DNA of 38,375 nt, from the NCBI GenBank assembly GCA_003136315.1, contig PLDW01000492.1:1-38375 (forward strand). The letters are read 5' to 3'. Under the pieces are notes generated by a model. It made no database searches. It saw only the letters and a list, made by a program, of their open reading frames with translations, and was not told the DNA's origin. The DNA is from Gemmataceae bacterium (lineage in GTDB: Bacteria > Planctomycetota > Planctomycetia > Gemmatales > Gemmataceae). The position numbers and the translations under genes are program-made. Of the stretch, positions 3,059 through 27,990 are shown piece after piece; positions within the stretch are counted from its first letter, which is position 1, and each line of letters opens with the position of its first letter.

Positions 3059-3264
3059 TTGTCGTCCTCCTGGTTGGTACACCCGGAGGAAGGCACGCCA
3101 GATTGGTCAGCAGTGGCGAAGAAAGGTATCGGGCGGTGAGGAAAGGACCGACCCCGGGAGGGTTCGCCGACGCTACTACCACCCGGGGCCAGAGTTGTCA
3201 TTCGCCCGCCGTGAGGCGGGACAGGGAACCGACCGGTTCCTGTGGGACATCCGTCCCGCCGGGG

Positions 3265-3389
3265 CTGCGGCCAAGCGGAACCCGTAGTTGTTGTTCCGGT
3301 TCGCGGGATCGTTCCTGTTGCGGTTCGCTGACCGGCAGTTCCTGCCGTTGTTGTTCCAGCTACCACCGCGGAGCACCCGAGACGAAGCC
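3265..3389 (-). repeat. DGR template repeat (TR)
   Basis: This 125-bp segment aligns without gaps to three copies elsewhere: VR1 5113-5237, VR2 13171-13295 and VR3 15774-15898. Read on the minus strand it is rich in AAC codons; in the frame used by the VRs it would encode RGGSWNNNGRNCRSANRNRN followed by more Asn-rich sequence ending in YGFRLA. It has 29 adenines on that strand, and 28 differ in at least one VR, while nearly all other bases are constant. That is the signature of adenine-specific mutagenic retrohoming. It lies immediately downstream of, and overlaps by 30 bases, the reverse transcriptase gene. A short frame (3176-3376) covers most of it, but this is template, not a likely protein. 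Confidence 0.97.
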
Positions 3390-4400
3390 TTGGTCGGTCC
3401 CCGGGGTGTGCTGTACGACCCGGCTACGAAACCGCCAACTCTTCACCCCGGCGGCCTGCGCGAACGCCACCAGGGCCTGCCCCCGCTGCTGGGCGTCAAG
3501 TTCGGGGATTTGACCCCGTTCTACGGCCGCAGCCAGCGTTGTCACTTTCCGCCGGAACCGCACCCGGCTCCGTCGGTTCAAAACCAGATGCGTCGGAAAC
3601 ACCCGACAACCGAGGAAATCCATGCCGCGAGCCGTCTGGTTCGTGTAGGGCTCGGGCTTGACGGCGAGGAGCAAGACGTCGGCGAGAAACACGCGAATGG
3701 CCCCGAGTGTGTCACGAAGATCGGTCGAGGACTGGCCCCATACCGCGATGTCGTCCATGTACCGGGCGTACCCTGGAGCGTGGCGGCCTTCCTTGACGAA
3801 TCGGTCACATCCCCCGAGGTAGAAGTTGGCAAAGTGCTGAGAGGTGAGACTCCCGATTGGTAGGCCCTTCCCAAGAGTGACAGCGTACCCATCGATCACC
3901 TGGGCGAACAGCGTAAGCAACCGCTGGTCCTTGAACCGCCGCTCCAAAAGTCCCTTGAGCGTGGCGTGATCGATGCTGTCGAAATACCGGCGAATATCGA
4001 GTTTCAGGAAGAACGGGAATCGGCTGGCGAACGTCCTTGCCTGGAGCAGGCACGCCACCCGTCCCTTCCTCCGGCGGCAGGCGTAGGTGTCGTGGACCAG
4101 CCACCGCTCAAACACTGGCTCGCAGATGTTGATGATCGCGTGGTGGAGTACCCGCTCGGCAAAGCATGGGGCGGTGATCAGCCGCTCTTTCGGATCGTGG
4201 ATCGTGAACTGGTGGTATTGCCCGACCGGTACGGAATCGGTGAGAAGCTGTTCGCGGAGTCTGCGGAGATTGGCATCCAGATCGGCAACGTATGCCCGGG
4301 CATCCGCCTTCGGCCGCTTACCGCGGAGTGCCCGGGCCGCTGCGAGCCGGAGGTTTTCCCACGCTGCGATCCCCTCCATCAGGTTCCCGGCCCGCTTCAT
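3360..4400 (-). CDS. DGR reverse transcriptase
   Basis: A 346-residue reverse transcriptase that copies the TR transcript into mutagenized cDNA. Palm motifs are visible: LDIRRYFDSID (134-144, first catalytic Asp), IGSLTSQ (182-188), YMDD (214-217) and FLGCRV (263-268). The IGxxxSQ motif in place of the retroviral/group II QGxxxSP is diagnostic of DGR enzymes and is linked to adenine infidelity. ATG 4400 is chosen because MKRAGNLM begins the conserved domain; a longer in-frame start at 4478 lies deep inside the HRDC gene. The gene overlaps that upstream gene by 83 bases, so they are probably co-translated. The last ten codons and the TAG stop lie inside the TR, so the enzyme's C-terminus is encoded by template sequence. 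Confidence 0.96.
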   Translation of the reverse strand: MKRAGNLMEGIAAWENLRLAAARALRGKRPKADARAYVADLDANLRRLREQLLTDSVPVGQYHQFTIHDPKERLITAPCFAERVLHHAIINICEPVFERWLVHDTYACRRRKGRVACLLQARTFASRFPFFLKLDIRRYFDSIDHATLKGLLERRFKDQRLLTLFAQVIDGYAVTLGKGLPIGSLTSQHFANFYLGGCDRFVKEGRHAPGYARYMDDIAVWGQSSTDLRDTLGAIRVFLADVLLLAVKPEPYTNQTARGMDFLGCRVFPTHLVLNRRSRVRFRRKVTTLAAAVERGQIPELDAQQRGQALVAFAQAAGVKSWRFRSRVVQHTPGTDQGFVSGAPRW

Positions 4401-4857
4401 GACCTGCCCTCGCTGGGGCAGAAGCTGCGAGGAACTGCGCCCCGTACTTCGCGACCCTGGCGTCCCCAACCCCGACAATCGTCTCCAACTCTGCCGGAGT
4501 GGTCATTCGTCGGCGAGCCATTTCGGCGAGTTGTTCGTTGGTGAAGATCGTGTACACGGGGACCGCCTCCCGTTGGGCCAGTTCCTTCCGCAGATCCCGG
4601 AGCTTGACGAACACGGCGAAGTCGGCCGGCGTCAGGAGTTCCCTGTAATCGACACGCCCCTTCCGCCCGCCCGGCTGACCCGGCGGGCCGGCAGCGGATG
4701 ACAGGAAATCGACGCAGATCGACCAGAACGAATTCTCTCCAGCATCTACGAATCGACGGTCGGCGACGAGGACGCGGTGGGATGCGAGGAAGGCGTTCAC
4801 CTCCGCCTCTTGGGCGGATGGGTCGCGGACCGGAATCGTGAAGAACTTGAACGCCAT
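4318..4857 (-). CDS. HRDC-domain DGR accessory protein
   Basis: A 179-residue protein, from ATG 4857 (AGGGGA just upstream; an in-frame TTG lies 15 bases earlier). Residues 1-75 begin MAFKFFTIPVRDP and contain FVDAGENSFWSICVDFL. Residues ~76-146 form an HRDC-type helical nucleic-acid-binding domain (LRDLRKELAQREAVPVY, IFTNEQLAEMARRR, ETIVGVGDARVAKYG). HRDC proteins are a known alternative to Avd as accessory factors beside DGR reverse transcriptases, presumably binding template RNA, cDNA or the target. The gene sits immediately upstream of, and overlaps, the reverse transcriptase. Its last ~35 residues are low-complexity (Arg/Gly/Pro) and are read from DNA that also encodes the RT N-terminus. 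No Avd gene is visible in the window. Confidence 0.9.
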   Translation of the reverse strand: MAFKFFTIPVRDPSAQEAEVNAFLASHRVLVADRRFVDAGENSFWSICVDFLSSAAGPPGQPGGRKGRVDYRELLTPADFAVFVKLRDLRKELAQREAVPVYTIFTNEQLAEMARRRMTTPAELETIVGVGDARVAKYGAQFLAASAPARAGHEAGREPDGGDRSVGKPPARSGPGTPR

Positions 4858-4879
4858 CCGTCCCCTGATCAATCCATTC

Positions 4880-4918
4880 GGAGTAATAATATAATCGCTT
4901 GATTATCAGATTAAAATG
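4880..4918 (-). promoter_or_regulatory. AT-rich patch upstream of the HRDC-RT cassette
   Basis: A short stretch of very low GC in otherwise GC-rich DNA, located 23-60 bases upstream of the HRDC start. It contains an inverted repeat, ATAATC-GCTT-GATTAT (4891-4906), and on the minus strand the TATA-like run ATTATATTATTAC. It is a plausible promoter or operator for the HRDC-RT-TR transcript, but no clear -35/-10 pair can be assigned. Confidence 0.35.
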
Positions 4919-4980
4919 GCTCTTTGGAATCGGTTGCGCTCGCTACGATCGCGGGGGGAAGTCGAACACCCCCTCACCTC

Positions 4981-5112
4981 GCTCCACTCCGGCCCTTCGG
5001 CCCCGCTACGGCATCTCCGGCTCCGCTCCGCTCCGCCTCCGTGCCTTCGCTGGGCCTGCGGGCCTCCGTTCCGCTTTCTATACACCTGTGTACTTGGCCC
5101 CGGCTTCAGGAA
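4981..5112 (-). repeat. Post-VR repeat R1 (copy after VR1)
   Basis: A 132-bp unit directly downstream of VR1 on the coding strand. It is repeated at the same distance after VR2 (13039-13170) and VR3 (15642-15773). R1 and R3 differ at about six positions and R1 and R2 at about fifteen, with no indels. It includes the end of the target gene and its stop codon. It contains GGCC-CTTC-GGCC and GGCC-TGCG-GGCC hairpins and iterated GCTCC units. In R1 the TGA used by the other two targets has changed, so this protein runs four codons further (YTGV). Confidence 0.85.
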
Positions 5113-7636
5113 CTGCGGCCAAGCGGAACCCGTAGTTGCTGAACCGGTTCGCGGGATCGTACCAGTAGCGGAACGCAGACCGGCAGAGCCTGCCGCCGTA
5201 GCTCCAGCACCCGCCACGGAGCACCCGAGACGAAGCCTGCTCGGCGTTTACGGGATCGGTCTTCTGTCCCCCCTCACTTCGATAAAACCTTGGTGCGAAC
5301 CAATCCGCACACCATTCAAACACATTGCCGTGCATTTGGACAAAAGTCCATTTGTTCTCACCAAGGGCATTGACCGGGATTGTTCGCCCTCGGTATTCCC
5401 CCGCTTTCGCTCCCGGGCCGAACGGTGCCTTGCCATAGAAGTTGCACACGTCCGCTGTACAGGTCTTGCCCTCGTGGTCTGGACCGAACGAGAACGGCTG
5501 GTCGGGACCAGCCCCGGCCCGGCAGGCGTATTCCCACTGGGCCTCGGTTGGCAGGGTGATGGTGTACGCGATCCCATTGTGACGGGCAACCCCGAGCCAC
5601 CTCGCGAAACACCAGGCATCGTACCATGACACATTCACAGCCGGACACCGGTCGTCGGCGGAGGCATCCCCGGATTTCTGGACATCCGGGTGCGGTTTGC
5701 CGCTCCATCGGCGATCCCGATGTCGAGGATCGAACAGTTCGTATTCGACGTTCGAGACGCAATACCGGTGAAGTCGGTAGTGGGTGAGCGTTACCGGGTG
5801 GAGGGGATTCATCTGGCCATCGCCCTGCCCGTCCCAGCCTGCGTCCTCGCCCTCCGGTGCCCCCATCGTGAACTGGCCGGTATCACCTGGCAGTTGATTC
5901 CGGACCAGATCGACGAAGCCGGCCAGCATCGTTTGGGCGAGTGGTCGGCTCGGATGGTCGGGGCCTTCCGGCCCGAGTATCTTCGGGAACTCGGCCAGGA
6001 AGTCCGCTCGGGCCTTGGTCCCGCCCATCCGTTTCCAACTTCGGCAGATGAACTCGCACGACCGCACTTGCCGACCTGCCGTATCAAGGGCCGACCCATC
6101 ATACAGCGGAGACATGATCCCCACCCAGGCATCGCGGCGCGATGCGGTGGGGTCGGTGGCAGCCGTGTCGCCGAGTTCGCAAGCGAACCGCCAGAACTCC
6201 CGATATTCGCCGTAGCGATCATCCTCCGGGGCCACCACCCACCCACGGAGACGCTCGAAGTCGGCCGGTGTGCCGTTTCGACCCACCCACGCCGCAGCGA
6301 AGAACGCCTGCATGGTCGGGTTCCGCCAGCGAATATCGCGATGCCGGCCGAGGGCATCGAGCAGGTAGTTCTCCAGCGGCCCCGCATTCATCGCTGCGAC
6401 GGCGTTGAAGTTGACCGAGAAGCGACGGAGGGAGGCGGCCCCCAGGGTCTCGACATCCTCGAACCGGCCCTCCGACTCGTGGGCAACCCGGGCCGCTGCC
6501 AGGCGGGAGTAAACTTGCCGGAGGAAGGTATCGGAGGCGGCTGCATCCACGTGCGAGAGGTTCGGTCGTTGCGGACCATCGGGCACAGCGGTGGGGTTCA
6601 CGTACATCTCAAACGCAACCGCCCCAAGGATGTTCCGGGCAATGTCCCGCTGAACCCCGCGGTAGGTCGCTGGAACCTCACCATCCTTTGGCTCCCACTC
6701 CAGGGTGTTCCCCGCTTTGTCGGCCTTCAACCCCTCCAGGAGCATGTCTCCGGTACATCGCCAGTAAACGTCGGCAAGTGTCCGGATGCCGTCGTAGTCC
6801 TTGCGGTGAGTCCCGAGTTTCCGCAGCATGTCGATCACGCGCGGGACACCGAGCAGTGTTCGACCTTCTGCGGGGATGAGGTCGAATCGATCAATCCGGG
6901 CTTCCCCGACAGGATCGCGCTCGTCTACGACCGTGCCAAGCAGAAATCGCTGCTGCTGTTCATCGAGTTGCTCGATCCGGACAAACCGCCAGTCATTCTC
7001 ATGCGGGGCGAAGAGGGAGTCCCACTGGCTGGTGAGAGCGTGGGGACGGGTGCTGACAACAATCGGGCAAGCCCCCCAGTCGCTTCGCGTGAGTAGCAAT
7101 TGAAGCGTCTTGACGGCTCCCGGACGAGAAAGGGCCTGGTCCAGGCTATCCAGGACAAGCGTGAGGTGCCCTGTGTCGCGGCGTCGTCGTAGCGCCCGGA
7201 GGGCGTGATCGGGGGGCAAGCTCTGAAGGTCACATCCCAGGCCGTTCCGCCAGTGATCCCGGATCAACATCTCCAACAGATCATCCGGATCGTCGGGCAA
7301 GCGATCGATGCCGAGGAAGAACACCATCTGCGAAGGGCGAGCGGTGGTCAGCCGGGCCGCCAGCCAGCCGAGGTTGGTGGTCTTCCCGAGGCCAGCGTCG
7401 GCGACCACGATTGTGCGGAGGAGTTCGCCGCCGGGACATGTCTTGTCGAGCCAGTCGGGTCGGGGCAAGTTCTTCCAGGGGGAGTCGCCCCCGGGCTCGC
7501 GGAACCCGCCGCGGTCGCGGAGGTCGCGGGCCGCAGCCACATCGAGCAGAGGCAACGGAGCGTGGCCAGGATCGAGCAATGAAAGCCGCTGATCGCGGAG
7601 GAAGTTCGAGTGCCTGCGCGGGGGCGAAGCGGTCAT
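5078..7636 (-). CDS. NACHT/STAND-like ATPase with C-terminal FGE-type variable domain (DGR target 1)
   Basis: 852 residues from ATG 7636, which overlaps the upstream stop as ATGA; a longer in-frame start is less likely. The N-terminal motif NFLRDQRLSLLDP (11-23) is shared with the other two targets. The P-loop [10 protein letters not shown] is at 79-88, a Walker B strand with acidic pair LTLVLDSLDQ at 158-167, and a sensor-like VVSTRPHAL near 195, as in NACHT/STAND switch ATPases. A helical region follows, with an AFFAAAW motif typical of NACHT C-flanks. The last ~260 residues form an FGE-sulfatase/C-type-lectin-like fold (LPTEAQWEYACRAG, MHGNVFEWC, RGGCW, GFRLA) ending in VR1. The GFRLA end lacks the second active-site Cys expected of a true formylglycine enzyme (GFRC), so the domain probably binds ligand rather than oxidising sulfatases. 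Confidence 0.92.
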   Translation of the reverse strand: MTASPPRRHSNFLRDQRLSLLDPGHAPLPLLDVAAARDLRDRGGFREPGGDSPWKNLPRPDWLDKTCPGGELLRTIVVADAGLGKTTNLGWLAARLTTARPSQMVFFLGIDRLPDDPDDLLEMLIRDHWRNGLGCDLQSLPPDHALRALRRRRDTGHLTLVLDSLDQALSRPGAVKTLQLLLTRSDWGACPIVVSTRPHALTSQWDSLFAPHENDWRFVRIEQLDEQQQRFLLGTVVDERDPVGEARIDRFDLIPAEGRTLLGVPRVIDMLRKLGTHRKDYDGIRTLADVYWRCTGDMLLEGLKADKAGNTLEWEPKDGEVPATYRGVQRDIARNILGAVAFEMYVNPTAVPDGPQRPNLSHVDAAASDTFLRQVYSRLAAARVAHESEGRFEDVETLGAASLRRFSVNFNAVAAMNAGPLENYLLDALGRHRDIRWRNPTMQAFFAAAWVGRNGTPADFERLRGWVVAPEDDRYGEYREFWRFACELGDTAATDPTASRRDAWVGIMSPLYDGSALDTAGRQVRSCEFICRSWKRMGGTKARADFLAEFPKILGPEGPDHPSRPLAQTMLAGFVDLVRNQLPGDTGQFTMGAPEGEDAGWDGQGDGQMNPLHPVTLTHYRLHRYCVSNVEYELFDPRHRDRRWSGKPHPDVQKSGDASADDRCPAVNVSWYDAWCFARWLGVARHNGIAYTITLPTEAQWEYACRAGAGPDQPFSFGPDHEGKTCTADVCNFYGKAPFGPGAKAGEYRGRTIPVNALGENKWTFVQMHGNVFEWCADWFAPRFYRSEGGQKTDPVNAEQASSRVLRGGCWSYGGRLCRSAFRYWYDPANRFSNYGFRLAAVPEAGAKYTGV
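5113..5237 (-). repeat. DGR variable repeat VR1
   Basis: Aligned to the TR without gaps, it has 19 differences, 16 of them at template adenines. The three other changes cluster at the 5' end (coding sense), in the codons for RGGC, and look like ordinary drift outside the homing tract. It encodes the end of the 852-residue ATPase; changed residues include WSYGGRLC, FRYWYDP and RFSNYG where the template has Asn. Confidence 0.96.
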
Positions 7637-8835
7637 TTGGCGGCCTCCTCCCGGGGGGTATCCACCTCCACCCACTCGTCATCGAATTGTGCCCGGACCC
7701 ATCCACGGTAGGCCCGGATGTACTGGTTGGTCGCGCTGATCTCCATGATTGCGTCGGCCACGGTGGCAACACGGGTGAAGGATGGGTGCGTGGGAAGCGG
7801 ATCGGGCCGTTGCCCGGCGGCCACGAGCACCTCGCGAAGGCCGGCGCTCTCGACAGCCTGAAACTTTCCCGGGATGGTGCCCTCATTGACTGTTCCGAGT
7901 CGACGCCGTCGCACGTCCGGGTGGTCGTTGGGTACTGTCGCCGTAATCGCTACGGAAGGGTTGAGGACAGGGTGACTGCGATGAGTGAGGCGCTCATACA
8001 CAGCGTGGCCAAGGCACACCACAGCGGCCTCCCCCGACCGGCCGGTGATTGGGGCCACCCAGGGTGTGTCCTCCGCACGGCGTTCCTCTAACCGCCACCG
8101 CAGACGGTAGGGTTTTTGCCGATCGGCAACCTCTCGCAACAAGCCTTGGGTCGACGCGACAAAGTCGGCGAACCGGTCCTTGTCCGCCGCACTGGCGTGG
8201 GGCACTGGCTGGGAGAATACAATCAGCCCCATCGGCCACCAGTCTGGCGTCACGAGTCCGGGCGGGCCTGGGAGAAGTTCGGCGACGAGCCGGAGGGCAT
8301 AGTTGGGTCCAGTGCCCGCGCTGACCACCAGGAACGCGGTTTCCTCCCGTATTTCGAGACCGTCGCCGGAACGGCCAGTCTGACCGGGTTTGGAGTGTTG
8401 CAGGTGCCACAGCACGTCATACACCAGCCATGCCCCAAGTCGGTCGAGTTTGAAATCAAAACCGAACGGCAAGGTCGGTGCGTCCTTGACCGGCTCCACT
8501 CTGGGGAGGGCACCCAACCAGGCGTCCTCAAACGCTTCGGCAGCCCGGTTGAGCCCCTGTTCATCCTTTCCAACGACTGCCGAGAGCGTATTGACGAGGC
8601 CGCACAGGCGTCCGTCGAGTGTCCGATCCCGTTTCTTCTCGCCGAGCCCAACGAGTTGGGTTTGGAGTCGTTGCAAGCCGTCCAAAAATCGCCCGCAGTC
8701 GTCTGGTGTCGCTTCGTGAATGGCGAATCTCGTCGCTCGCCACAGGGCCGATCCGGTTCCACAACAGAGTGTGGCTCGCTGGTATGGAGCCTGCCCGCAG
8801 TCGATTATGCTGAGAAAAGCATCAATAGCAGTCAC
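7633..8835 (-). CDS. Hypothetical protein with Lon-like (S16) Ser/Lys pattern
   Basis: 400 residues from GTG 8835, overlapping the upstream stop as GTGA; its own stop overlaps the start of the ATPase as ATGA, so the genes are translationally coupled. The first ~250 residues match nothing I recognise. Residues ~260-345 resemble the Lon/S16 protease fold: TGRSGEAAVV (264-273, candidate nucleophile Ser267), a strand VAITATVP (295-302), and GTIPGKFQAVESAGLREVLV (319-338, candidate Lys324). In Lon the catalytic Ser lies in GPSAG and the Lys about 43 residues later before an AAxxAG helix; here the spacing is 57. If correct, this could be a proteolytic effector regulated by the variable ATPase. It could also be an inactive S16-like scaffold. 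Confidence 0.65.
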   Translation of the reverse strand: MTAIDAFLSIIDCGQAPYQRATLCCGTGSALWRATRFAIHEATPDDCGRFLDGLQRLQTQLVGLGEKKRDRTLDGRLCGLVNTLSAVVGKDEQGLNRAAEAFEDAWLGALPRVEPVKDAPTLPFGFDFKLDRLGAWLVYDVLWHLQHSKPGQTGRSGDGLEIREETAFLVVSAGTGPNYALRLVAELLPGPPGLVTPDWWPMGLIVFSQPVPHASAADKDRFADFVASTQGLLREVADRQKPYRLRWRLEERRAEDTPWVAPITGRSGEAAVVCLGHAVYERLTHRSHPVLNPSVAITATVPNDHPDVRRRRLGTVNEGTIPGKFQAVESAGLREVLVAAGQRPDPLPTHPSFTRVATVADAIMEISATNQYIRAYRGWVRAQFDDEWVEVDTPREEAAK

Positions 8836-9587
8836 GACTGCCCTCCCTGTTCGAGCCGACGCACAAAGATTTCGATCGTCTCCTGAACCTCCCAGTCACC
8901 GTTGCAATTGTCCCCGAGTTTCCGGACATCGGCGATGGGGAACTCGGCCAGGTTCTCTTCAGTTGCGGGGACGACGTACACGACCCCGGCATTTCGGTCC
9001 GGCCGGAAGCCGAGATTGGTCAACCCGACATCGGCCTGGCGGACATCCTGACCACCGGCCTGTTCGATCCGGAACACCACGATCGCTTCCCCAGCCGGGG
9101 TTCCGTCGATTTCCGACGTCACTCGGGCGACTCCATACGGAATGTCGGACGCCAAGTACGTGAGTCGGATCACCCCTGCCTGCTGGTTGATCTCGTGGGA
9201 CGGAAATACCTTTGGTCGGGGGACAGTTGGAGTAGATGGACCAGGGTCAGCGACCAGGGGGCACTCGATCCGAACCTCGGCCCGGAACCCGGTACTGGTT
9301 CGGATGACGCAGCCCGAGCCGCCCTCGGAGCCATTTTCACTCGGCACCACTAGGTTGAATGGTTCGGCTGGTTTCAGAGCTTCCGGAAAGACCCATCTGG
9401 CAAGCTCCGCGCCGATCTCGCGGAAGAGAGCCGGCAGCGGCTCGCGGTCCTCGTCTTTCGTCAACGAGAACCAGTGGCGGACCAGGGGATCGAACTCGCG
9501 TGCGTGCTCGATCGCCTGACGCAGTTGCGGGTTCGTAACGCGTCCCATCTTGTACTCGATCACATCGTCTTGAGTAATGTCTGACAT
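8832..9587 (-). CDS. Anti-sigma-like regulatory protein
   Basis: 251 residues from ATG 9587, with AGAGGA eight bases upstream. The N-terminal ~45 residues (DVIEYKMGR, PQLRQAIEHAREFDP) resemble the helical sigma-binding segment of anti-sigma factors, but the HxxxCxxC zinc motif is absent. The rest (about 95-240) is rich in beta-strand-like sequence, for example AGVIRLTYLA and GEAIVVFRIEQ. There is no obvious transmembrane helix, so it would act in the cytoplasm. It lies 51 bases after a sigma-factor-like gene and overlaps the next gene. The assignment rests mainly on the N-terminus and on this neighbourhood; the remainder is of unknown function. Confidence 0.5.
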   Translation of the reverse strand: MSDITQDDVIEYKMGRVTNPQLRQAIEHAREFDPLVRHWFSLTKDEDREPLPALFREIGAELARWVFPEALKPAEPFNLVVPSENGSEGGSGCVIRTSTGFRAEVRIECPLVADPGPSTPTVPRPKVFPSHEINQQAGVIRLTYLASDIPYGVARVTSEIDGTPAGEAIVVFRIEQAGGQDVRQADVGLTNLGFRPDRNAGVVYVVPATEENLAEFPIADVRKLGDNCNGDWEVQETIEIFVRRLEQGGQS

Positions 9588-9638
9588 GGTTTATTCCTCT
9601 CAGTTATATGTTTTGAGCCAGGATCGTACTCGCAGCTC

Positions 9639-10589
9639 TTACTCGTGGAAGTCATCGGGGAGTCGTTGACGCAGTTTTTTCTTCGCCGATTCCCAGTGTT
9701 TCTTGGCTTGCGCGACGGAACACCCCATCGCAGTCGCGATTTCCTCCCAGGTCAGGCCCTCCCAGCATTTCAGTTGAATCACCTGTTGCTCCCCGGGCAG
9801 CAAAAGAGCGAGCATGTCCTTGAGACGGCTGTCGCGTTCCTCATCCTCGGCCATCGCGGCGGGCTGTTCCGATTCGTCGGTCCCGGGTGAGCGATCGAGC
9901 CGGTTCTCGTCCTCGTGACGATCGAGATCGGTGTGGTTCTTGGTGCGTGGACTCCCCTTCGAGGGCGGTTCCTGGACAGGGTCCGCGGTCGCGATCGTTT
10001 CATCCCGGCGAGACGCGACCTTTCCCGTCTCGATTCCGCTGACATCTCCCGTCATGGCCCGTTTCCCGAAGAGCATGGCATCGTCCAGCCAGGTCTGTCC
10101 TTCCGGCAATCCCTTCCGCACGCGATCAAGCAGGTATTCCGCCTTGCCGATAATAATCCGTACGATCTGCCAAGCGACATAGCCGAACTCATCCTCGATC
10201 TCGGCCATCGGGTTATTCGATCGTGGTTGATGCGATCGAGCCCTGCGCGCGTGTGCCCAGGAATGTAAACGCTGGGCGAGTTTGTTAAGGAACTTCTCGG
10301 ACTTCATCAAGTCCCGCGCGACCTGTTCCCAGATCGGGCAACGCCCACCAGGCTTGCGATTCTCGAAGATGTTCAGCAACTCCGGGAATTCGTTCACATA
10401 ATTCACTGCCTTGGTCGCGGCATCATTCGGCCATTTGGCGGGATTGGCCAGGGCCTCGGACGCTTTCTCGTACTTCTCGGCGCCGTTGTCAGAATCGAGC
10501 GGCATGTTCAGGCAATCGCTCACGGCCCGGTTGCACCTCACAAGGCACTCCAGGTATTCCACGCTTTCGAGTTCCAGAGGTGGACTCAT
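9639..10589 (-). CDS. Sigma-70-family-like transcription factor
   Basis: 316 residues from ATG 10589, with AGGAGG eight bases upstream. The C-terminal ~60 residues are a clear sigma region 4 helix-turn-helix: LLPGEQQVIQLKCWEGLTWE, then EIATAMGCSVAQAKKHW and a basic recognition end. A charged low-complexity linker (about 190-250) precedes it. The N-terminal half is helical with conserved Trp/Arg clusters (FGYVAWQIVRIIIG) where region 2 would be, but classic region 2 motifs are not obvious. It is the first gene of a tightly spaced run (anti-sigma-like, Lon-like protein, ATPase), suggesting that it controls expression of the locus. It could also be a non-sigma regulator that borrowed the domain. 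Confidence 0.7.
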   Translation of the reverse strand: MSPPLELESVEYLECLVRCNRAVSDCLNMPLDSDNGAEKYEKASEALANPAKWPNDAATKAVNYVNEFPELLNIFENRKPGGRCPIWEQVARDLMKSEKFLNKLAQRLHSWAHARRARSHQPRSNNPMAEIEDEFGYVAWQIVRIIIGKAEYLLDRVRKGLPEGQTWLDDAMLFGKRAMTGDVSGIETGKVASRRDETIATADPVQEPPSKGSPRTKNHTDLDRHEDENRLDRSPGTDESEQPAAMAEDEERDSRLKDMLALLLPGEQQVIQLKCWEGLTWEEIATAMGCSVAQAKKHWESAKKKLRQRLPDDFHE

Positions 10590-10684
10590 GCGACGATCCT
10601 CCTTTCCAATCGTTACAAGGCATCATCGACAGGGCCGCAGAGCGATTTTTTCGCGATTTTTTCAACCCCTCTCCCCACCACCAC

Positions 10685-11932
10685 TTACGCTGCCCGACGA
10701 CCCCCTCCCCGGCACACCGGGCAATCCGCCCCCGCTCCGACCAGCCCGGCTGCGACCTCCAGCCCGCGACCCGGAACCCATCGCTGCCGGTGCCAGGTTG
10801 ATCCGCCCAGGTCGCCGTTCACGAGGTCGAGCCACAACTGCACCCCGGTTGCCGCCGCGATCCCGTTGAGCGTCGGCAGCGAGCCCAGCCGACCCCGGGC
10901 GTCCCACGGTTCGGGTGGTCGCCGGGGGGCCGCTCCTGGCGGAGCACGCAGTTCATACTCCGCCTGGTCGAGATCCCCGAGCCCGCCCACGCACCTCACG
11001 CACCCCATCCCGGGGAGCAAGAGCCGCACATCCGCCGCGAGTTGACGGCCCTCCGGTCGATGGGTGACCCCGGTTCCCACATCCAGATGAACCACCCCAT
11101 GCTCCGCCGCCCAGTGGGCCACCTTCAGGCGACCTGCGTCTCGATCGACCGTGGTCACGATCAGGTCGATGTCGCGGAGAAGAACCCGTCGGTCGAGGAT
11201 GTCGTGGGCGAAAGCCGTGACAGCCAGATCGGGGCGGAACGCGACGAGGTTTCGGGCCAGCGCGACCACCTTCGCCTCGCCCACATCTACCGCCCGCACA
11301 CCCACCATTCCCACGACATTGTGATCCTCCAGTCGGTCCGGATCGACGAGTACCAGCCGTCGGATGCCGACCCCCGCAAGCTGGAACGCCACCGCCGACC
11401 CCAGCCGCGATGCCCCCACCACTGCTGCCGAACTCTGGATCACCTTTCCGAACGCCCGCTCGCCCACGGCCTGGATCGTTCGCGACCACAGCGAATCGGC
11501 CACGGATCGGCCCGTGGTCGCGGTCTTCGGCAGTCCCGGTCCGATGACACGGAACCCGGCCAGCGGAGCGACCTCTCCGGCCTCGAACACCCACCCTCGC
11601 CACCCCGATAGTGCTGGCGCCAGACCGACGAGTAACACCACCAGTCGCTGCGTATTCCACGGTCGGAGGCGGGAGAGCCAGTAATCCGGTTCGCCCGCCT
11701 CGGTCGCAGTCGTGGCAGCCAGCACGAGCCAGGAATCCAGCGGCCTGCGATCGTCCCCGCTGCCCGGGCTCGCGAGTCGTAGCCCCGATGCGAGCAGCGT
11801 GGGTGGCAAACGGGTGAAATCCGGAATCGCCTCCCCGATCGCCGTTCGCGACCGGTCGGTCAGGAGAGGCCCCAACACAGCCCGATCACCCGGGGCCGCG
11901 ATCACCAGTTCGTAGGAAGTGGGCGTCTTCAT
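10685..11932 (-). CDS. E1/ThiF-like adenylating enzyme
   Basis: 415 residues from ATG 11932, with GAGG just upstream. Residues ~165-395 form the E1/ThiF/MoeB Rossmann fold: SAAVVGASRLGSAVAFQLAG (nucleotide-binding loop), RRLVLVDPDRLEDHN (acidic residue and Arg/Asn of the adenylation site), DLIVTTVDRD, and LNGIAAATGVQLWLDLV. Two CxxC pairs, GCVRC and DCPVC, would hold the structural zinc. The N-terminal ~160 residues are not recognised; they may be a partner-binding domain. Such enzymes adenylate the C-terminus of ubiquitin-like or sulfur-carrier proteins. In phage-defence and conflict loci they occur with JAB or E2-like partners, but no certain one is visible here. It is on the same strand as the DGR targets, 95 bases upstream of the sigma-like gene. 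Confidence 0.88.
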   Translation of the reverse strand: MKTPTSYELVIAAPGDRAVLGPLLTDRSRTAIGEAIPDFTRLPPTLLASGLRLASPGSGDDRRPLDSWLVLAATTATEAGEPDYWLSRLRPWNTQRLVVLLVGLAPALSGWRGWVFEAGEVAPLAGFRVIGPGLPKTATTGRSVADSLWSRTIQAVGERAFGKVIQSSAAVVGASRLGSAVAFQLAGVGIRRLVLVDPDRLEDHNVVGMVGVRAVDVGEAKVVALARNLVAFRPDLAVTAFAHDILDRRVLLRDIDLIVTTVDRDAGRLKVAHWAAEHGVVHLDVGTGVTHRPEGRQLAADVRLLLPGMGCVRCVGGLGDLDQAEYELRAPPGAAPRRPPEPWDARGRLGSLPTLNGIAAATGVQLWLDLVNGDLGGSTWHRQRWVPGRGLEVAAGLVGAGADCPVCRGGGRRAA

Positions 11933-11986
11933 GGTTACCTCGGTGTGGGATGGGTAGGCCGCAAGCGGCCCGCCCGCCCACGCGGG

Positions 11987-12196
11987 TCAGTCTCGGTCCT
12001 GGATCGCGCGGAGGCGGGCCAGTTCCTCGGCTCTCCGCCGGTCGACCTCAACTTGCCGCTGCTGGAGCCCCCCGAACCACCCGGCCAGTTCTGCCGAGGG
12101 GGGGAAAGCGACCGGGCCGACCTCGTGTGTCGGTATGGTTGGAACCACCGGCTGCGGCTCGATCGCCGGGGCCGGTGCGGGAATCGTCGCGTTCAC
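11987..12196 (-). CDS. Small proline-rich protein upstream of the E1-like gene
   Basis: 69 residues from a GTG start at 12196, preceded by a G-rich run (gggggacgaaac). The N-terminal half is Pro/Ala/Val-rich and likely disordered (IPAPAPAIEPQPVVPTIP). The C-terminal half is a charged helix (QQRQVEVDRRRAEELARLRA). The C-terminus (AIQDRD) does not end in Gly, so it does not look like a mature ubiquitin-like substrate. It lies 54 bases upstream of the E1-like gene and 56 bases downstream of another small gene, so it is probably part of the same transcript. Function is unknown. Confidence 0.5.
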   Translation of the reverse strand: MNATIPAPAPAIEPQPVVPTIPTHEVGPVAFPPSAELAGWFGGLQQRQVEVDRRRAEELARLRAIQDRD

Positions 12197-12252
12197 GTTT
12201 CGTCCCCCTTGGGTTCGAGATACCGCGGCGGGGTTGGCCGCCGCTCAGGACA

Positions 12253-12615
12253 TCACGCCGCGGACATGGCCGCCACGGCGACCACCGGCGGCCCCATCCG
12301 TCGCAAGGCCGCGTAGACGCGGTCGTGCGTTTTGCCGACCATCAGATTCGGCTCCGACCGTAACGGCGTCAGCCGCGGGTTCTCCAGGTGGTAGGTGTGA
12401 ACCCCGACCCGAACGCCTCTCCGGGCCGCCCCGACCGCAGTCGTCGCCGCCAGATCGGTGTCGCCAAAGAGGACGTGGTCGAAGTCGATCACCAGGATCT
12501 CATCCCGCTCCAACACCCCCACTTCGCCCGGGTGCTGGCACACCTGCCGGTAGCCGCGGATCAACGCCCCGGCTCGTTCCACTTCGTCTGCCGATACATA
12601 TGCGCCCTGAAGCAT
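12253..12615 (-). CDS. Hypothetical 120-residue protein, partner gene of the E1-like enzyme
   Basis: 120 residues from ATG 12615, chosen because GGGGAGG lies just upstream; the frame stays open to 12957, but that extension runs through hairpin repeats and is unlikely to be translated. Residues 4-30 form a helix (SADEVERAGALIRGYRQV). Then come alternating strands and helices: DEILVIDFDHVLFGD, a helix AATTAVGAARRG, and RVGVHTYHLENPRL, suggesting a small alpha/beta fold. The HTYHL stretch is faintly reminiscent of a metal-binding HxH but does not match the JAB motif. The position, first in a run of three small-to-medium genes ending with the E1-like enzyme, suggests a shared pathway. I assign no function. 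Confidence 0.6.
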   Translation of the reverse strand: MLQGAYVSADEVERAGALIRGYRQVCQHPGEVGVLERDEILVIDFDHVLFGDTDLAATTAVGAARRGVRVGVHTYHLENPRLTPLRSEPNLMVGKTHDRVYAALRRMGPPVVAVAAMSAA

Positions 12616-12731
12616 GACTGCCTCCCCACCCCGGCCGGTCGCATCTTGCGTTGGCCAGGGCCTCGGTTGCTTTCGCGTCCCTTCACTGGTAGGAAGGCAC
12701 ACTCGACAGGGTCGCAACAAACCATTCCGCG

Positions 12732-12964
12732 CATCCGACCAATCAAACTCAACAAGAATTATCTCCCTCGTTCCCACGCTCTGCGTGGGAACGCCGTCTT
12801 CGACGCTCTGCGTCGTGGCCTGACCGGAACGTACGCTTGTGCGGAGATACGATAAGCGTCGTCCACAGCGTGTTGGCCCACCCCGCGGAGCGGGGAAAAC
12901 CCAGTTCCCACGCAGAGCGTAGGAACCAGGGGTAAACAATTTCGCCCATCCGACCAATCAAACT
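12732..12964. repeat. Hairpin cluster flanked by an 18-bp direct repeat
   Basis: This lies in the 532-base gap between 12615 and the end of DGR target 2. The 18-mer CATCCGACCAATCAAACT occurs at 12732-12749 and 12947-12964. Between the copies lie a perfect hairpin CGTTCCCACGC-TCT-GCGTGGGAACG (12769-12793), a smaller one CGACGC-TCT-GCGTCG (12801-12815), and a third with one mismatch (12904-12926). The layout suggests an inserted, non-coding repeat element flanked by its duplicated target or ends. The rest of the gap, 12965-13020, is AT-rich and may carry a promoter. Confidence 0.7.
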
Positions 12965-13038
12965 TAATTAAATTATATTATTACGTATATAGCAATGATG
13001 TGATTTTCATTTTTCTGGCGCTTCGCTTACCCCAACCT

Positions 13039-13170
13039 GCTCCACTCCGGCCCTTCGGCTTCGCAGTGGCATCTCCGGCTGCGCTCCGCTCCGCCTCCGT
13101 GCCACCGCTGCGCCTGCGGGCCTCCGTTTCGCTTTCTGGACACCCGTTCACTTGGCCCCGGCTTCAGGAA
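13039..13170 (-). repeat. Post-VR repeat R2 (copy after VR2)
   Basis: Same 132-bp unit as R1 and R3, ungapped, the most diverged of the three (about fifteen differences from R1). The stop codon of target 2 (TGA, 13148-13150) lies inside it. The GGCC-CTTC-GGCC hairpin is kept. Confidence 0.83.
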
Positions 13171-15592
13171 CTGCGGCCAAGCGGAACCCGCAGCCGTCGT
13201 ACCGGATCGCGGGATCGTTCCTGACGCGGCGCGCTGACCGGCAGTCCCTGCCGAAGCTGCTCCAGCTACCACCGCGGAGCACCCGAGACGAAGCCCGAAC
13301 CGGCCCACAAGGATCGGTCCGTCGCCCTATATTATAATATTCGCTTGCGTAAAAATCCTGACACCATTCCCATACGTTCCCGTGCATATCTTGGAGGTGC
13401 CACAGGTTCGGGGGGTACGAGTTTGGCGGTGTGGTCGTTCGCAGGTATGGTCCTTTGTTTTCTGTTCCATAGGGATATTCCCCATTGTGGTTCGCCAGGT
13501 CTCCCCGCAAGATCGACCCAAAGTGAAACGGGGTGGTAGTTCCCGCCCGGCAGGCGTACTCCCACTCCGCCTCGGTCGGCAGGCGATACCCCGCCCACCG
13601 GGCAAAACAGCACGCCTGATACCACGTCACATTCACTGCCGGGTGGCGGTCAGCATCATCCCCGGCCGGGTGGGGCTCGGAGCCAGGCGACCACCCCCAC
13701 CGCTCCTTCGCATGGGTCGGATCGAACAACTCGTACTGGGCGTTCGTGACGAGAAACTCGTGCAGCGCAAATGGCGACACCACCACCTCGTGTTGGTGCT
13801 CGTCGTCATCTCGTTCTGTCTCGGTTTCTGGTGAGCCCATCAGGAAGGGCTTGCGGTCGTCGCCAGGAGCGGGTGGGCAGCGACGGAACCCCGCCGGGAT
13901 TTGTCGAGCCACATCGCCGCGGGGGCCAGGGTCGGCCAGAAGTGATTGGAACTCATTCCGCCAGGTGGCTATCACTTTCCGACCGGCCCGTGATCGTCGC
14001 ATCGCGGGCCACGCCCGGAACATCATCTCGCAACAGCGGGTCGCCCCGGGCTCGAACAGCACCCCGACCGCAGCCGCCCACAGCGGGTCTTTTCGCACCG
14101 CCCGCGGCATCTCCACCAGGAAACCCCACAGCGGAGCGTACAGGCTCTTGCCCGTCTCATCTCGCGTGTCGTCGTAACGCCACTCCCGCAAACGCTCGAT
14201 GTCTTTGGGGGTCGCGTATCGGGAGAGCCACCAGGCCGCGAAAAACTCCTGCAACGACCGATCGTACCAGCGGAAATCGCCCTGCCGGGTCGGCCGCGTG
14301 TCGAGCAAGTCGAACTGGATCGTATCGTTCAATTCGGCCAGCGCATCCAGGTCGTCCTCCAGGTCGCGGAGATCGTACTCCCGACCGCGTACGCCCGCGC
14401 CCTGAAGGCACGTCAGAACCCGCCCGAGGAACTTCTCCATCCCCGCCACCGGGATGTGGGACACATTCGGGCGGAACGGTCCCTCCCGGCCTTTCGAGCC
14501 CGGCGCGGGGGACCGGTACATCGTGTAGGCCAGCGCTCCCAGCAAATCGAGGGCGAAGGCGATCTGCCGCTCCTGGGCGTGCGGGGGTGGGGGCCGGTCC
14601 TTCCGCACCCCGAGCAGCCGGGCCTTCGGGTTCGTCATCCCGTACCGCACGCGGTGGTCCGCCGCACCCGCAAACATGTGCGATGCGGTACGCAGATCGG
14701 CGAGTGTGTAATCGACCAGGCGGCAGGGTTCGCGCGAGGGACGGGGGCGGTCGGGTTTGTCCCCACACTTGCGGATGTATTCGATATTCCGTGGGTTCTC
14801 CGCCAGCCCCCGCCCACCCGGAGGCAGCCGACGATACCGGGCGGCCCCCAACCGCCGCCGCTCGGCAGAATCGGGGCCGTCCGGACCGAGCAGGAGTTCG
14901 CGTTCCGGCCGGGCCAGGGGTTCGACCCGGGCAAACCGCCAGGCCCCTTCGTTCGGGACGATCAACTCATCCCACCCATCGAAAACGGCATGGGGTCGAG
15001 CGCTCACCACCACCGGGCAATTCGCCCACACCCCCGATTCGAGAACGGCCCGCAGCAGTTGCAAGCCGTTCTTGTGGGCCTGATCGATACTGTCGAACAG
15101 CAGGGTGATCCGCCCAGCCTCTCGCAGTCGTCGAAGGGTCGGGAGGACGCGATCATTGGGCAGGTCGGCGTTCGCTGTTGGCTTCCGGAAGCGATCCGGG
15201 AGGGTGCGTTTCCAGAAGTCGGTGTAAGTGTTCGGGAGGTCAGGGTGATCGAGGGTAAACAGGAATGGCACCTGGCCCTTGTCAGCAAGTTCCTTGGCCA
15301 GCCACACGAGGTTGGTACTCTTCCCCAGTCCGGCCGCGCATACAACCGCCAGCCGTCGAATCTTGCCCCCAGCCGTGAGTTGGCGGACGAAAAACGCCCG
15401 TTTCTTCGCTCGCCACGGCGGGCGGGGCCGCTCCTCCCCGCCGGATCGGCCAGCGTGCCGGTCCTCCCAAAACTGCCTCCCGGAGAGGTACTCGCGAACG
15501 TTTTGCTGCGGTTGAAGGAGCGATAACCGCTGGCCCGTCGCAAAAGCCAGCTTATCATTCTTATTATTGTTATTATTTATGGTGGTATTCAT
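13148..15592 (-). CDS. NACHT/STAND-like ATPase with C-terminal FGE-type variable domain (DGR target 2)
   Basis: 814 residues from ATG 15592; a GTG at 15631 is in frame, but neither has a strong ribosome site, so the start is uncertain. The N-terminus is Asn-rich (MNTTINNNNNKND), encoded by an AT-rich patch. Then come the shared GQRLSLLQP motif (20-28), P-loop AAGLGKSTN (86-94) and Walker B ITLLFDSIDQ (162-171), with VVVSARPHA as the sensor strand. QEFFAAWWLSRY in the middle is the typical NACHT C-flanking motif. The C-terminal ~250 residues form the FGE-like domain: [64 protein letters not shown] and GFRLA, ending in VR2. GFRLA lacks the catalytic Cys, so a binding role is likelier than enzymatic activity. 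Confidence 0.92.
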   Translation of the reverse strand: MNTTINNNNNKNDKLAFATGQRLSLLQPQQNVREYLSGRQFWEDRHAGRSGGEERPRPPWRAKKRAFFVRQLTAGGKIRRLAVVCAAGLGKSTNLVWLAKELADKGQVPFLFTLDHPDLPNTYTDFWKRTLPDRFRKPTANADLPNDRVLPTLRRLREAGRITLLFDSIDQAHKNGLQLLRAVLESGVWANCPVVVSARPHAVFDGWDELIVPNEGAWRFARVEPLARPERELLLGPDGPDSAERRRLGAARYRRLPPGGRGLAENPRNIEYIRKCGDKPDRPRPSREPCRLVDYTLADLRTASHMFAGAADHRVRYGMTNPKARLLGVRKDRPPPPHAQERQIAFALDLLGALAYTMYRSPAPGSKGREGPFRPNVSHIPVAGMEKFLGRVLTCLQGAGVRGREYDLRDLEDDLDALAELNDTIQFDLLDTRPTRQGDFRWYDRSLQEFFAAWWLSRYATPKDIERLREWRYDDTRDETGKSLYAPLWGFLVEMPRAVRKDPLWAAAVGVLFEPGATRCCEMMFRAWPAMRRSRAGRKVIATWRNEFQSLLADPGPRGDVARQIPAGFRRCPPAPGDDRKPFLMGSPETETERDDDEHQHEVVVSPFALHEFLVTNAQYELFDPTHAKERWGWSPGSEPHPAGDDADRHPAVNVTWYQACCFARWAGYRLPTEAEWEYACRAGTTTPFHFGSILRGDLANHNGEYPYGTENKGPYLRTTTPPNSYPPNLWHLQDMHGNVWEWCQDFYASEYYNIGRRTDPCGPVRASSRVLRGGSWSSFGRDCRSARRVRNDPAIRYDGCGFRLAAVPEAGAK
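13171..13295 (-). repeat. DGR variable repeat VR2
   Basis: Ungapped match to the TR with 15 differences, all at template adenines (coding strand). It encodes the end of target 2, where template Asn codons have become Ser, Phe, Asp, Arg, Val, Ile and Tyr (WSSFGRDC, RRVRNDP, IRYDGCG). The absence of any non-adenine change suggests recent homing. Confidence 0.97.
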
Positions 15593-15641
15593 TTTTGTTG
15601 CGATCGCTACGCTCGCTTGGGAGTTCGCCACTCAACACCCC

Positions 15642-15773
15642 GCTCCACTCCGGCCCTTCGGCCCCGCTACGGCATCTCCGGCTCCGCTCCGCTCCGCCTC
15701 CGTGCCTTCGCAGGGCCTGCGGGCCTCCGTTCCGCTTTCTGGACACCTGTTCACCTGGCCCCGGCTTCAGGAA
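15642..15773 (-). repeat. Post-VR repeat R3 (copy after VR3)
   Basis: 132-bp unit, about six differences from R1. It includes the TGA stop of target 3 (15751-15753) and the GGCC-CTTC-GGCC and GGCC-TGCG-GGCC hairpins. It fills most of the 158-base gap between targets 3 and 2. Confidence 0.85.
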
Positions 15774-18114
15774 CTGCGGCCAAGCGGAACCCGCAGTAGT
15801 CGAACCGGTACGCGGGAACGATCCTGTAGCGGTCCGCTGACCGGCAGTACCAGCCGTAGTCGTACCAGCTACCGCCGCGGAGCACCCGAGACGAAGCCCG
15901 CTCGTCAAAATGGTCTTCGCACCATTCCCACACGTTCCCGTGCATATCATACAGGTCGTACTGATTCGGTCGAAGTTCTCCTACGGGGTGGGTCGAGCCT
16001 TTTCTCCATGCCTCGCCGAACCAGGCATAGTCCTTCAGTGAGGGCTCGTCGTTCCCGAAGCACCAACGATCGGCCGACCCTCCCCGGCAGGCGTACTCCC
16101 ACTCCAGTTCCGTGGCCAGTCGGTGCCCACACCACGCCGCGAAGTTCCAGGCGTCGTACCACGTCACATGTACGACCGGGTAGCGTTCGTCCCCGCGTCT
16201 ACGCCACCAACTCACCAGGGGGTGTTTGCCGTGCCACCGCTCCGCCCGGTGGGCGGGGTCGAACAGCTCGTACATTTCGTTCGTCACCACCCACAGGTGC
16301 ATTCGGAACGCCGCGACGGGGCGGGGGACGCCCTGCACACCGTCCACAGGGTCGGCCCCATACGGGCACACCCCGGCTGGGATGGGGCGGAACCCACCTT
16401 CGATCTCCTGGTGAATTCGGCGCTGGTTTGCCCACCCCTTTTCCAGAGCCCGATACGAGGCACGCCACCTGGTGATCGTTTCGGGTGATCGTCTCTGCAT
16501 GGACCGAAAAGCGTGGTACACCATCCTCCGGTGCCACTGCACCCAGTCGTGAGAGCCTCGTACCGTTTGCGGCGGCGCGAAGTACGGCCGAAACACCGCG
16601 AACCATCGTTCCCGATCAATCAGTTCGTCGGGCAATTCGGCCGCGAACGTCCAAAACTCGTCGAACGCTGCGAGCCCCTCGCCCTTGCCATCGACCACCC
16701 ACCGACGCATCTGGACCCGGTCGTCCGGTGACCCGAAACGCATCCCCCAGTAGGCCGCGAAGAACGCCTGGACGGTACGATCGTGCCAGGCCACGCCCCG
16801 GCGGCCGAGTTCGCGGAAGAGGAGGAAATCGACCGCCCCGGTGTTCATCTGGGTGAGCAGGTCGAAGTCGTTTTGATACTCCGCTGGCGTGCCCAGCCCG
16901 GCCCCCGCGAGTCGCGTGGCAACCGCCGTGTGAAACCCTGGCAGATCCCGCTCAGGAATCCCGACCGTGTTCGGTTCCGGTGGGGCGTCGGGGGTCTTGG
17001 CCGAGAACATCTCGAATGCGATCGCCCCGAGCAGCGCTGCCGCGCGGTCGATCCGGGTCTGATGGTTCCCCCGGCCGGGCTCGCCCCCTTTGGGCAACCC
17101 GATATGGGCGGCTGGCCCGACCAGCCCGGAGGCCAGCAGCCCCCGCCGATTCACCCGCTCGTCGCCGCCCGGTACAAGACGGGCGGGGTCAATGTGCTCT
17201 CCCGGCTCGAAGTAGGCCAGGGCGTACACATCCGTCGCAGTGGTCAGCCCAAGCCCACGGACGGCCTCCCTGGGGTCGCCACCGCTGGCCGTGGCGTCCG
17301 CCACCGCACCCCCAATCAGCCCGGCCATCAAACGGAGCAACCGGGGCACCGCCAGGAGCCCGCGGCCGCCGGTGGGGATGTCGTCGTACCAGTCCCCGCC
17401 CGCCTGCCGGGTCAGGTAGAGCCGGACCTCGGGTTCCCCCAGCGGCTCGACCCGCAGGAATGTCCAGTCCGGGCCAACGAACAGATCCCAAGCACCATCA
17501 AAGGCGTGCGGTCGACCGGCGACCCACACCGGGCAGCCCCGCCACCCGTCCGACCCGAGTACATCCCCCAGAAGCCCCGGGACGCCATCGCGAGAGAGAG
17601 CGTGGTCGAGGCCATCAATGAGCAGTGTGATCCGGCCATCCGCCTGCAACCGCTCGACAGACCGCCGGTTCTGGGTGAGGTCGCCACCCCCGTTCCGGGA
17701 GATCGCCGACGCGAGATGGTCTAGAACTGCGCCCGGAGTCCGATGTTCGGCTTCGAGGAGGTCGAGGCCGCGGGTCGAATCCAGCCGAATCAGCAGGGGG
17801 AGTGTCCCCGAGCCCGGTCGTCCCGCAAGACTCGCTTCCAGCCACTGGAGGTTCGTGGTTTTGCCCAGCCCGGCATCGCAGACCAGACCGACACGCAACG
17901 GACGAGCCCGACCGGAGGCCAGTTCGAGGAGTTTGGACCGCTCAATCGGCTGCCACGGGTCGCGATCAGGCCGTGACTCTGGGGTCTCGGGTGTAGCTCC
18001 ACCAACGGCCCCACAAACCAGACCCCGCCGCTCCTTCGGATTGGCGACGGGGTCGAGTTGTGACAGCCGCTGCCCGCGTAGGAAGGGCTGCGGGGTATTC
18101 CCGGGCGAATTCAT
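15751..18114 (-). CDS. NACHT/STAND-like ATPase with C-terminal FGE-type variable domain (DGR target 3)
   Basis: 787 residues from ATG 18114. The shared motif [12 protein letters not shown] (11-22) is followed by P-loop [10 protein letters not shown] (79-88), Walker [12 protein letters not shown] (162-172) and a sensor-like [10 protein letters not shown]. The middle has [13 protein letters not shown], the NACHT-flank motif. The C-terminal ~230 residues are FGE-like: [67 protein letters not shown] and GFRLA, ending in VR3. It is the first gene of the minus-strand locus, facing away from the restriction operon across a 363-base gap. Conserved architecture with targets 1 and 2 indicates duplication of the whole gene plus the post-VR repeat. 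The role is probably ligand-triggered switching; the ligand is unknown. Confidence 0.92.
15774..15898 (-). repeat. DGR variable repeat VR3
   Basis: Ungapped match to the TR with 16 differences, 15 at template adenines; the other is a synonymous third-position change in a Gly codon near the 5' end. It encodes [17 protein letters not shown] and RFDYCG at the end of target 3. Even the template Asp of the NDP segment is altered (to Val), so mutagenesis reaches non-Asn codons. Confidence 0.96.
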
Positions 18115-20856: not shown

Positions 20857-20874
20857 TCGGACGGAAAGATACTC

Positions 20875-27926: not shown

Positions 27927-27990
27927 CCCATTAACGCGAGGAACCGGCGGGCTGGCACCCGCCGGTCCTCTTAACTCAGGAGCTTTACCG

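Follow-up and report, generated by a model that had tools for sequence, protein, structure and literature searches.

An HRDC-type diversity-generating retroelement with one template repeat, three NACHT...FGE target genes and a shared long predicted hairpin in a Gemmataceae bacterium

How one template can diversify several divergent genes, and what would direct the rewriting machinery to each of them, is the question raised by a 38,375-nucleotide stretch of DNA from a Gemmataceae bacterium (contig PLDW01000492.1), here called the window. The window carries a diversity-generating retroelement (DGR) made up of a template repeat (TR), three variable repeats (VR1-VR3), a reverse transcriptase (RT) gene and an accessory gene encoding an HRDC domain. 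We hold with considerable confidence that this is an HRDC-type DGR whose VRs likely arose by error-prone copying of the TR into three NACHT...FGE genes, a process probably guided by a hairpin. The kind of system, an HRDC-type DGR with NACHT-FGE targets, is already known. New, as far as our searches extend, are a long, shared, loop-patterned element 3' of the VRs and a trace of rewriting in relatives in which no RT was detected.

The repeats, compared over 125 bp on the coding (minus) strand, are as follows.

3265..3389, minus strand: TR, 125 bp; ungapped match to the three VRs with adenine-specific differences; the RT gene's 3' end extends over its first 30 nt
5113..5237, minus strand: VR1; 19 differences from the TR, 16 at A
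13171..13295, minus strand: VR2; 15 differences from the TR, 15 at A
15774..15898, minus strand: VR3; 16 differences from the TR, 15 at A

A first-pass annotation of the window had proposed these coordinates and ungapped 125-bp alignments, and realignment confirmed them. Its counts also hold: template adenines account for 46 of the 50 TR-VR differences (16/19 in VR1, 15/15 in VR2 and 15/16 in VR3), and 28 of the 29 TR adenines are changed in one VR or more, position 124 being the exception. Changes spread evenly over the four bases, the pattern that the annotation had set against a DGR, were not what realignment returned. The adenine bias is strong in each repeat (Fisher test, 7.4e-10 for VR1, 8.6e-12 for VR2 and 1.2e-10 for VR3). 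All four non-adenine changes are silent (positions 22, 25 and 28 in VR1 and 25 in VR3), and VR1-VR3 contain no stop codons. The last 20 nt of the TR and VRs are fully identical, whereas IMH and IMH* of BPP-1 are described, in the accessible part of PMC12875486, as 'nearly identical'. A search of the bacterium's own genome (E up to 0.01) returned only VR1-VR3 as full-length relatives of the TR; two partial matches, on contigs C2 and C190, belong to other DGR clusters. Template adenines changed to T 27 times, to G 17 times and to C twice across VR1-VR3, and in 22 pooled TR/VR pairs, VR1-VR3 included, to G 179 times, to T 160 times and to C 41 times (n=380). The A-to-C deficit (2/46) was set aside as a special feature, being weaker in the pooled pairs (41/380).

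The enzymatic part of the system lies beside the TR.

3360..4478, minus strand: DGR-type RT; Pfam RVT_1 3.1e-11; IGSLTSQ and YMDD motifs; PDB 8ub7, E 1.4e-48
4318..4872, minus strand: HRDC-domain accessory protein; Pfam HRDC 1.4e-19; overlaps the RT frame, upstream of the RT
3095..3264, minus strand: TR 3' flank; strong fold when taken as RNA, with TAGTA in the apical part of the second hairpin

DGR RTs share the motif (I/L/V)GxxxSQ, and the IGSLTSQ and YMDD motifs bear out the earlier identification of an SQ-motif RT next to the TR. The top PDB sequence match, at E 1.4e-48, is 8ub7, whose chain bears only the name 'Reverse transcriptase' and which we take to be the BPP-1 DGR enzyme. The RT frame is listed from a TTG, with an ATG at about 4400 as the likely start, and its stop codon lies inside the TR (30-nt overlap); the nearest relative, locus L071, has a similar overlap. 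Both the RT and the HRDC frames are open. An HRDC gene is present at 19 of 27 RT relatives from named genomes (tblastn and profile search), which span Verrucomicrobia, Bacteroidales, Spirochaetes, Deltaproteobacteria, Planctomycetota and others. Together with the adenine-specific TR/VR differences, the SQ-motif RT, the FGE (C-type-lectin-type) targets and the accessory gene support the first-pass reading of the locus as a DGR, and an inverted repeat 3' of the VR, a further feature of DGR membership, is predicted in all three flanks.

Relatives of the window RT are rare. In the genus, 1/6 genomes has a match at E 1e-20, namely the bacterium's own; in the family, 9/95 do at 1e-20, counting the bacterium's genome and DGRs of other classes, and in the phylum, 12/392 at 1e-60, own included. 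DNA of the TR, RT and HRDC gene gave a single 72-bp match in plasmids and no match in phages, and the RT gave one distant locus in viral contigs. L071 (genome G015) is the closest relative of the window DGR (RT 60%, HRDC 64%). Its target is a kinase-DUF4062-FGE protein and, because a TrwC relaxase and a ParB gene lie nearby, this DGR may travel on a conjugative element. In the 170 nt following the TR, TAGTA is present at 9/26 HRDC loci (1.5 expected) and at 1/14 other loci (0.3 expected), and is possibly part of the priming structure of the template RNA.

The DGR of Treponema denticola has one TR and several VRs. It resembles the window DGR in the FGE fold of its variable protein (2y3c, matched by T2, below) and, according to the accessible part of PMC4891356, in an HRDC gene that overlaps the RT gene. 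As described there, the T. denticola accessory gene lies between TR and RT, whereas in the window the TR follows the RT, and the T. denticola targets, unlike those of the window, are linked to lipoprotein signals. The text of PMC4891356 contains no 'hairpin', 'cruciform' or 'stem-loop', whereas a long hairpin is predicted here.

Three target genes carry the VRs.

5078..7675, minus strand: target T1, a NACHT ... FGE protein; Pfam FGE 2.4e-38, NACHT 4.9e-8
13148..15631, minus strand: target T2, a NACHT ... FGE protein; Pfam FGE 6.3e-47; NACHT 1.4e-5, just under the curated cut-off
15751..18114, minus strand: target T3, a NACHT ... FGE protein; Pfam FGE 4.6e-39, NACHT 4.7e-6

The VRs sit at the 3' ends of T1-T3, in genes for an FGE domain that is of the C-type-lectin type by sequence only. 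The three proteins are mutually 33-36% identical. By sequence, the FGE part of T2 matches FGE-family enzymes and the T. denticola variable protein 2y3c in the PDB, and the best non-self match to T2 among 5.8 billion proteins searched has 62% identity. NACHT...FGE is already known as a DGR target type from the accessible part of PMC10907252, which reports, for Thiohalocapsa PB-PSB1 and clade 5D relatives, DGRs that commonly have two targets, genomes with several DGRs and planctomycetes among the hosts. The window DGR is like these in the NACHT or nSTAND central domain, in the C-terminal FGE/CLec domain with the VR, and in sharing its genome with further DGRs. It differs from those described there in having three targets with one common long 3' hairpin segment, in the embedding of its targets in a ThiF/sigma/p400 operon, and in its HRDC gene, HRDC being mentioned 0 times in the main text of that paper.

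Downstream of the three VRs lies the element that may direct the copying.

4986..5069, minus strand: long predicted hairpin 3' of T1; GGA triloop and six GNA/GNA internal loops in the minimum free energy (MFE) fold of the 150-nt flank
13044..13127, minus strand: long predicted hairpin 3' of T2; MFE fold of the 150-nt flank with four GNA/GNA loops
15647..15730, minus strand: long predicted hairpin 3' of T3; GGA triloop; MFE fold of the 150-nt flank with six GNA/GNA loops

Across T1-T3, the 120 bp 3' of the VRs are 88-95% identical, against 39-60% for the DNA 5' of the VRs, which is about the level of shuffled controls (54-57%; one control per pair). With the T1 3' segment as query, the 11.6-Mb genome yielded three copies, each at a VR. 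The predicted hairpin (~84 nt, RNA parameters) follows the stop codons of T1-T3 and consists of short stems alternating with symmetric 5'-GNA-3'/5'-GNA-3' internal loops on the coding strand. When the window was folded in 150-nt stretches on both strands, 18/1530 stretches contained at least one GNA/GNA loop and 6/1530 at least two, every one of the latter on the three VR flanks. Rfam gave no match in 2200-18500. The short consensus GGCACGNA...GNAGATGCC was rejected as a description of the element because it is too loose, matching 53/95 genomes, mostly outside DGR loci. The long predicted hairpin probably guides RT-based rewriting to the three targets.

Published phage target hairpins are shorter: in the accessible part of PMC3240598, they have a 7-10 bp stem and a 4-nt GRNA loop on the sense strand and lie 4-34 bp from the VR, and such a hairpin is needed for efficient BPP-1 retrohoming. 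The likeness to BPP-1 consists of an inverted repeat 3' of the VR with a G..A loop on the sense strand; the hairpins of the window differ in being ~84 nt long, in having GNA/GNA internal loops and, for T1 and T3, in carrying a GNA triloop. A literature search that left out most subscription journals found neither a description of a long GNA-looped target hairpin nor an account of how HRDC-class DGRs find their targets. The 'Tentaclin' paper was set aside, as the hairpins in its accessible text are protein hairpins. In phage DGR work, the target signal is a short hairpin. The long and largely strand-specific element that the ends of the three divergent targets share offers a removable test object, and the new features make target choice in HRDC-type DGRs testable.

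The loop pattern recurs elsewhere. GNA/GNA loops were counted in 52 VR flanks from scripted TR/VR pairs in fetched loci, with 30 dinucleotide shuffles of each flank. The HRDC loci known when the idea arose hold 24 loops against 0.10 expected (7/15 flanks, 5/13 loci), and HRDC loci fetched later hold 9 against 0.27 (5/21 flanks, 4/14 loci). Loci without detected HRDC gave three loops against 0.07 in eight flanks, all L033, and none against 0.03 in the other eight. TR flanks gave 0 loops in 51 (one per TR/VR pair, 40 of them distinct; one further flank was too short), and the reverse complements of the VR flanks gave one in 52. GNA triloops at hairpin tips number 27 in the 52 VR flanks against 1.6 expected from shuffles, and two in the 51 TR flanks against 1.3. 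Predicted G-N-A elements thus recur widely 3' of the VRs of DGR loci, for the most part on the coding strand. The combination of unlike upstream DNA with near-identical 3' flanks was found only in the window among loci with at least two VRs: high flank similarity accompanies similar upstream DNA in L073 and L105, while flanks are moderately alike in L018, L051 and L100 and share little in L099, L106 and L109. At L033, the place between target and RT that is elsewhere occupied by HRDC holds a Y1 transposase gene (4682-5485; Pfam Y1_Tnp), which we read as being of the REP-associated type.

Several observations weigh against a guiding hairpin. L033 has three GNA/GNA loops and no detected HRDC gene, only 9 of the 27 HRDC loci have such loops, and the two nearest relatives, L071 and L072, lack them. 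GNA triloops exceed the shuffles on the reverse strand too (6 in 52 against 0.9), and L106 and L109, which have similar targets, have little 3' flank in common (58-59%). Within the window, no compensatory base-pair changes occur among T1-T3; of the pairs in the T3 structure, three are lost in T2 and one of these three in T1 as well. Because such changes are lacking, the structure rests on the loop pattern and on the other loci. With DNA energy parameters, the hairpins are no more stable than shuffles (z 0.00, 0.05 and -1.00), and with RNA parameters the 150-nt flanks are only modestly more stable than shuffles (z -0.8 to -1.8).

The same facts favour a different account of the shared 3' flank, namely that it is a duplication remnant, a terminator or a REP-like repeat and no target signal. 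The missing compensatory changes, the lack of excess stability with DNA parameters and the absence of the loop pattern from 18/27 HRDC loci all fit this account, which we nevertheless consider unlikely. The DNA 5' of the VRs, being no more alike than shuffled sequence, shows no recent whole-gene duplication; just three copies were found in a genome of 11.6 Mb, all at VRs; and the same loop type stands at VRs of other phyla and at 0/40 distinct TRs.

Returning to the hairpin-guided DGR, a sequence of events can be proposed by analogy with other DGRs. The TR RNA would be reverse transcribed with errors at A, and the resulting complementary DNA (cDNA) would pair with the VR coding strand, the strand with the GNA motifs, and be copied into the T1-T3 genes. 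The coding-strand hairpin might keep that strand open, or HRDC and/or RT might bind the hairpin. By analogy with published NACHT/STAND systems, the FGE tip would then sense an invader molecule and the NACHT part would signal. A 2026 reconstitution (PMC12875486, accessible part) found that targets co-directional with replication are edited preferentially, the cDNA-complementary strand then being the lagging-strand template. It suggests that a stem-loop keeps the target open, and the primase tests of this model were inconclusive there. We infer that the coding-strand bias of the GNA motifs would fit this replication-direction model.

The following genes lie between T1 and T2.

7633..8835, minus strand: p400; no Pfam, NCBIfam or PADLOC match; place conserved in genomes G058 and G059
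8832..9587, minus strand: p251; no Pfam, NCBIfam or PADLOC match; place conserved in G058 and G059
9639..10589, minus strand: sigma-factor-like protein (region 4); Pfam Sigma70_r4_2 5.1e-9; relative matched in G058 only
10685..11932, minus strand: ThiF / E1-like protein; Pfam ThiF 3.9e-21; PADLOC E1-E2 3.1e-20; 67% identical in G058 and G059
12253..12957, minus strand: p234, a doubtful operon member between T2 and ThiF; no Pfam, NCBIfam or PADLOC match

Of 94 other genomes in the family, two (G058 and G059) keep the order T2-like gene, ThiF, (sigma), p251, p400, T1-like gene. Relatives of p400 and of NACHT-FGE proteins in a protein search share two contig sizes, 49987 and 35326, which suggests that the two are linked in further genomes. 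p234 has short matches elsewhere in its own genome; the idea that it keeps its place in relatives was dropped, since in G058 and G059 it matches only partly, and on the opposite flank of the T2-like gene. As for NTP-dependent conflict systems, the accessible part of PMC7159879 describes FGE-type domains linked to DGRs and an association with ubiquitin-like systems, in both of which the window resembles them. The DGR cases given there are vWA-FGE proteins in VMAP-ternary systems of cyanobacteria and gammaproteobacteria; unlike those systems, the window has no MoxR or vWA domain among its 20 proteins scanned with Pfam.

Immune sensing is not the only role to weigh: the diversified FGE proteins might serve another kind of binding, such as surface or self recognition. 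Pfam, NCBIfam and PADLOC recognised no effector domain or partner in the targets or their neighbours, which counts against the sensor view; p400, p251 and p234 match nothing, and PADLOC gives homologies for ThiF, RT and HRDC only. Such another role strikes us as rather improbable, given that DGR targets combining NACHT/nSTAND with a C-terminal FGE/CLec VR have been published as putative antigen sensors (PMC10907252, accessible part) and that a type I restriction operon adjoins.

When the VRs were last written can be judged from their flanks. At VR positions 29-125, every pair of targets has 0/68 non-A differences, whereas 19, 9 and 17 sites differ in the three pairs over the 140 bp after the VR (6-14%; Fisher 5e-4, 0.03 and 2e-3 for the contrast). 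When all 96 non-A VR sites are counted, the pairs show 3, 2 and 1 differences, and the contrast is weaker (0.006, 0.21 and 0.0009). Because of the contrast between 0/68 and 6-14%, the rewriting appears younger than the flanks, and the VRs were most simply written from the TR after the flanks had diverged. The first-pass description of the DGR as 'apparently recently active' is thus partly supported, relative to the flanks (9-19 of 140 sites). The neighbouring RT likely rewrote the tips of the predicted sensors and may still do so.

A related pattern is found in G058 and G059, neither of which has a PF00078 match in its assembly (0/2 at E 0.001) or a detectable template-like DNA copy. Comparison of their T1 tips over 41 codons gives 20 differing sites, of which codon position 1 has 11, position 2 has 9 and position 3 has none; 17 of the 20 fall in 25 core codons, and one of the remainder is a silent CTG/TTG change. 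The preceding 196 FGE codons of T1 differ by 26/21/43 over the three codon positions and the further 562 T1 codons by 102/84/199, so that the chance of zero third-position changes in 40 codons at the upstream rate is 5e-5. The T2 tips (17/16/24) bear no such trace. The T1-tip pattern is the trace expected of a DGR. An RT in G059 could be unassembled because its contig (locus L125) ends 413 bp after T1; the G058 contig (L126) continues for ~277 kb on that side. For these two genomes, a DGR may have been lost, may be unassembled (at the G059 contig end) or may act in trans. The G058 VR had no match in plasmids, nor did its pattern in viral contigs. Sensor operons that have a DGR beside them and others that do not offer a natural comparison of mutator gain or loss at a predicted immune system.

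The same data bear on whether the window DGR is a fossil that wrote the VRs formerly and is now inactive. In favour of a fossil, the 5' part of VR1 carries three non-A changes, all silent, and G058 has a sensor with a tip of the rewritten type and no RT in the assembly, so RT loss may happen. With the RT and HRDC frames both open and not one of the 68 non-A sites at VR 29-125 differing while the flanks have diverged by 6-14%, a fossil is nonetheless quite unlikely. Plain duplication or gene conversion followed by drift, which three paralogous genes with a common domain might bring to mind, is refuted by the base distribution, with 46 of 50 changes at one base and Fisher values below 1e-9 for each VR.

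An extension of the hairpin-guided reading can be put forward only tentatively and at low confidence: the VR and the long coding-strand GNA/GNA-zipper hairpin read by HRDC/RT, ~265 bp in all, might form a portable cassette with which HRDC-type DGRs mark their targets and which makes any gene a target, with the mutator coming and going, or being mobile, while the sensors stay. One template could then serve three divergent sensor genes because each had gained a VR-plus-hairpin cassette, and a transient mutator, or one located on a mobile element, is suggested because the tips of relatives are rewritten in assemblies without an RT.

The bacterium's genome carries at least four further TR/VR clusters, C2 (L018), C190 (L019), C362 (L020) and C159 (L021), and no HRDC gene was found in their fetched stretches. 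Their targets include caspase-FGE proteins at C2 and kinase-FGE proteins at C190 and C362. C190 has a TR and a VR, but its 7.2-kb contig gave no RT match. A GAA-triloop hairpin follows 3/5 VRs of these clusters. In the window itself, the type I restriction-modification operon (R, M, S) lies at 18478-23843, divergent from and adjoining T3. Farther on, 27438-32931 holds an integrase, a DnaB-like helicase, a weak primase match and a helix-turn-helix gene; a tRNA-Arg at 32732-32806 on the minus strand is contained in the integrase frame, at its end. This segment looks like an integrated element.

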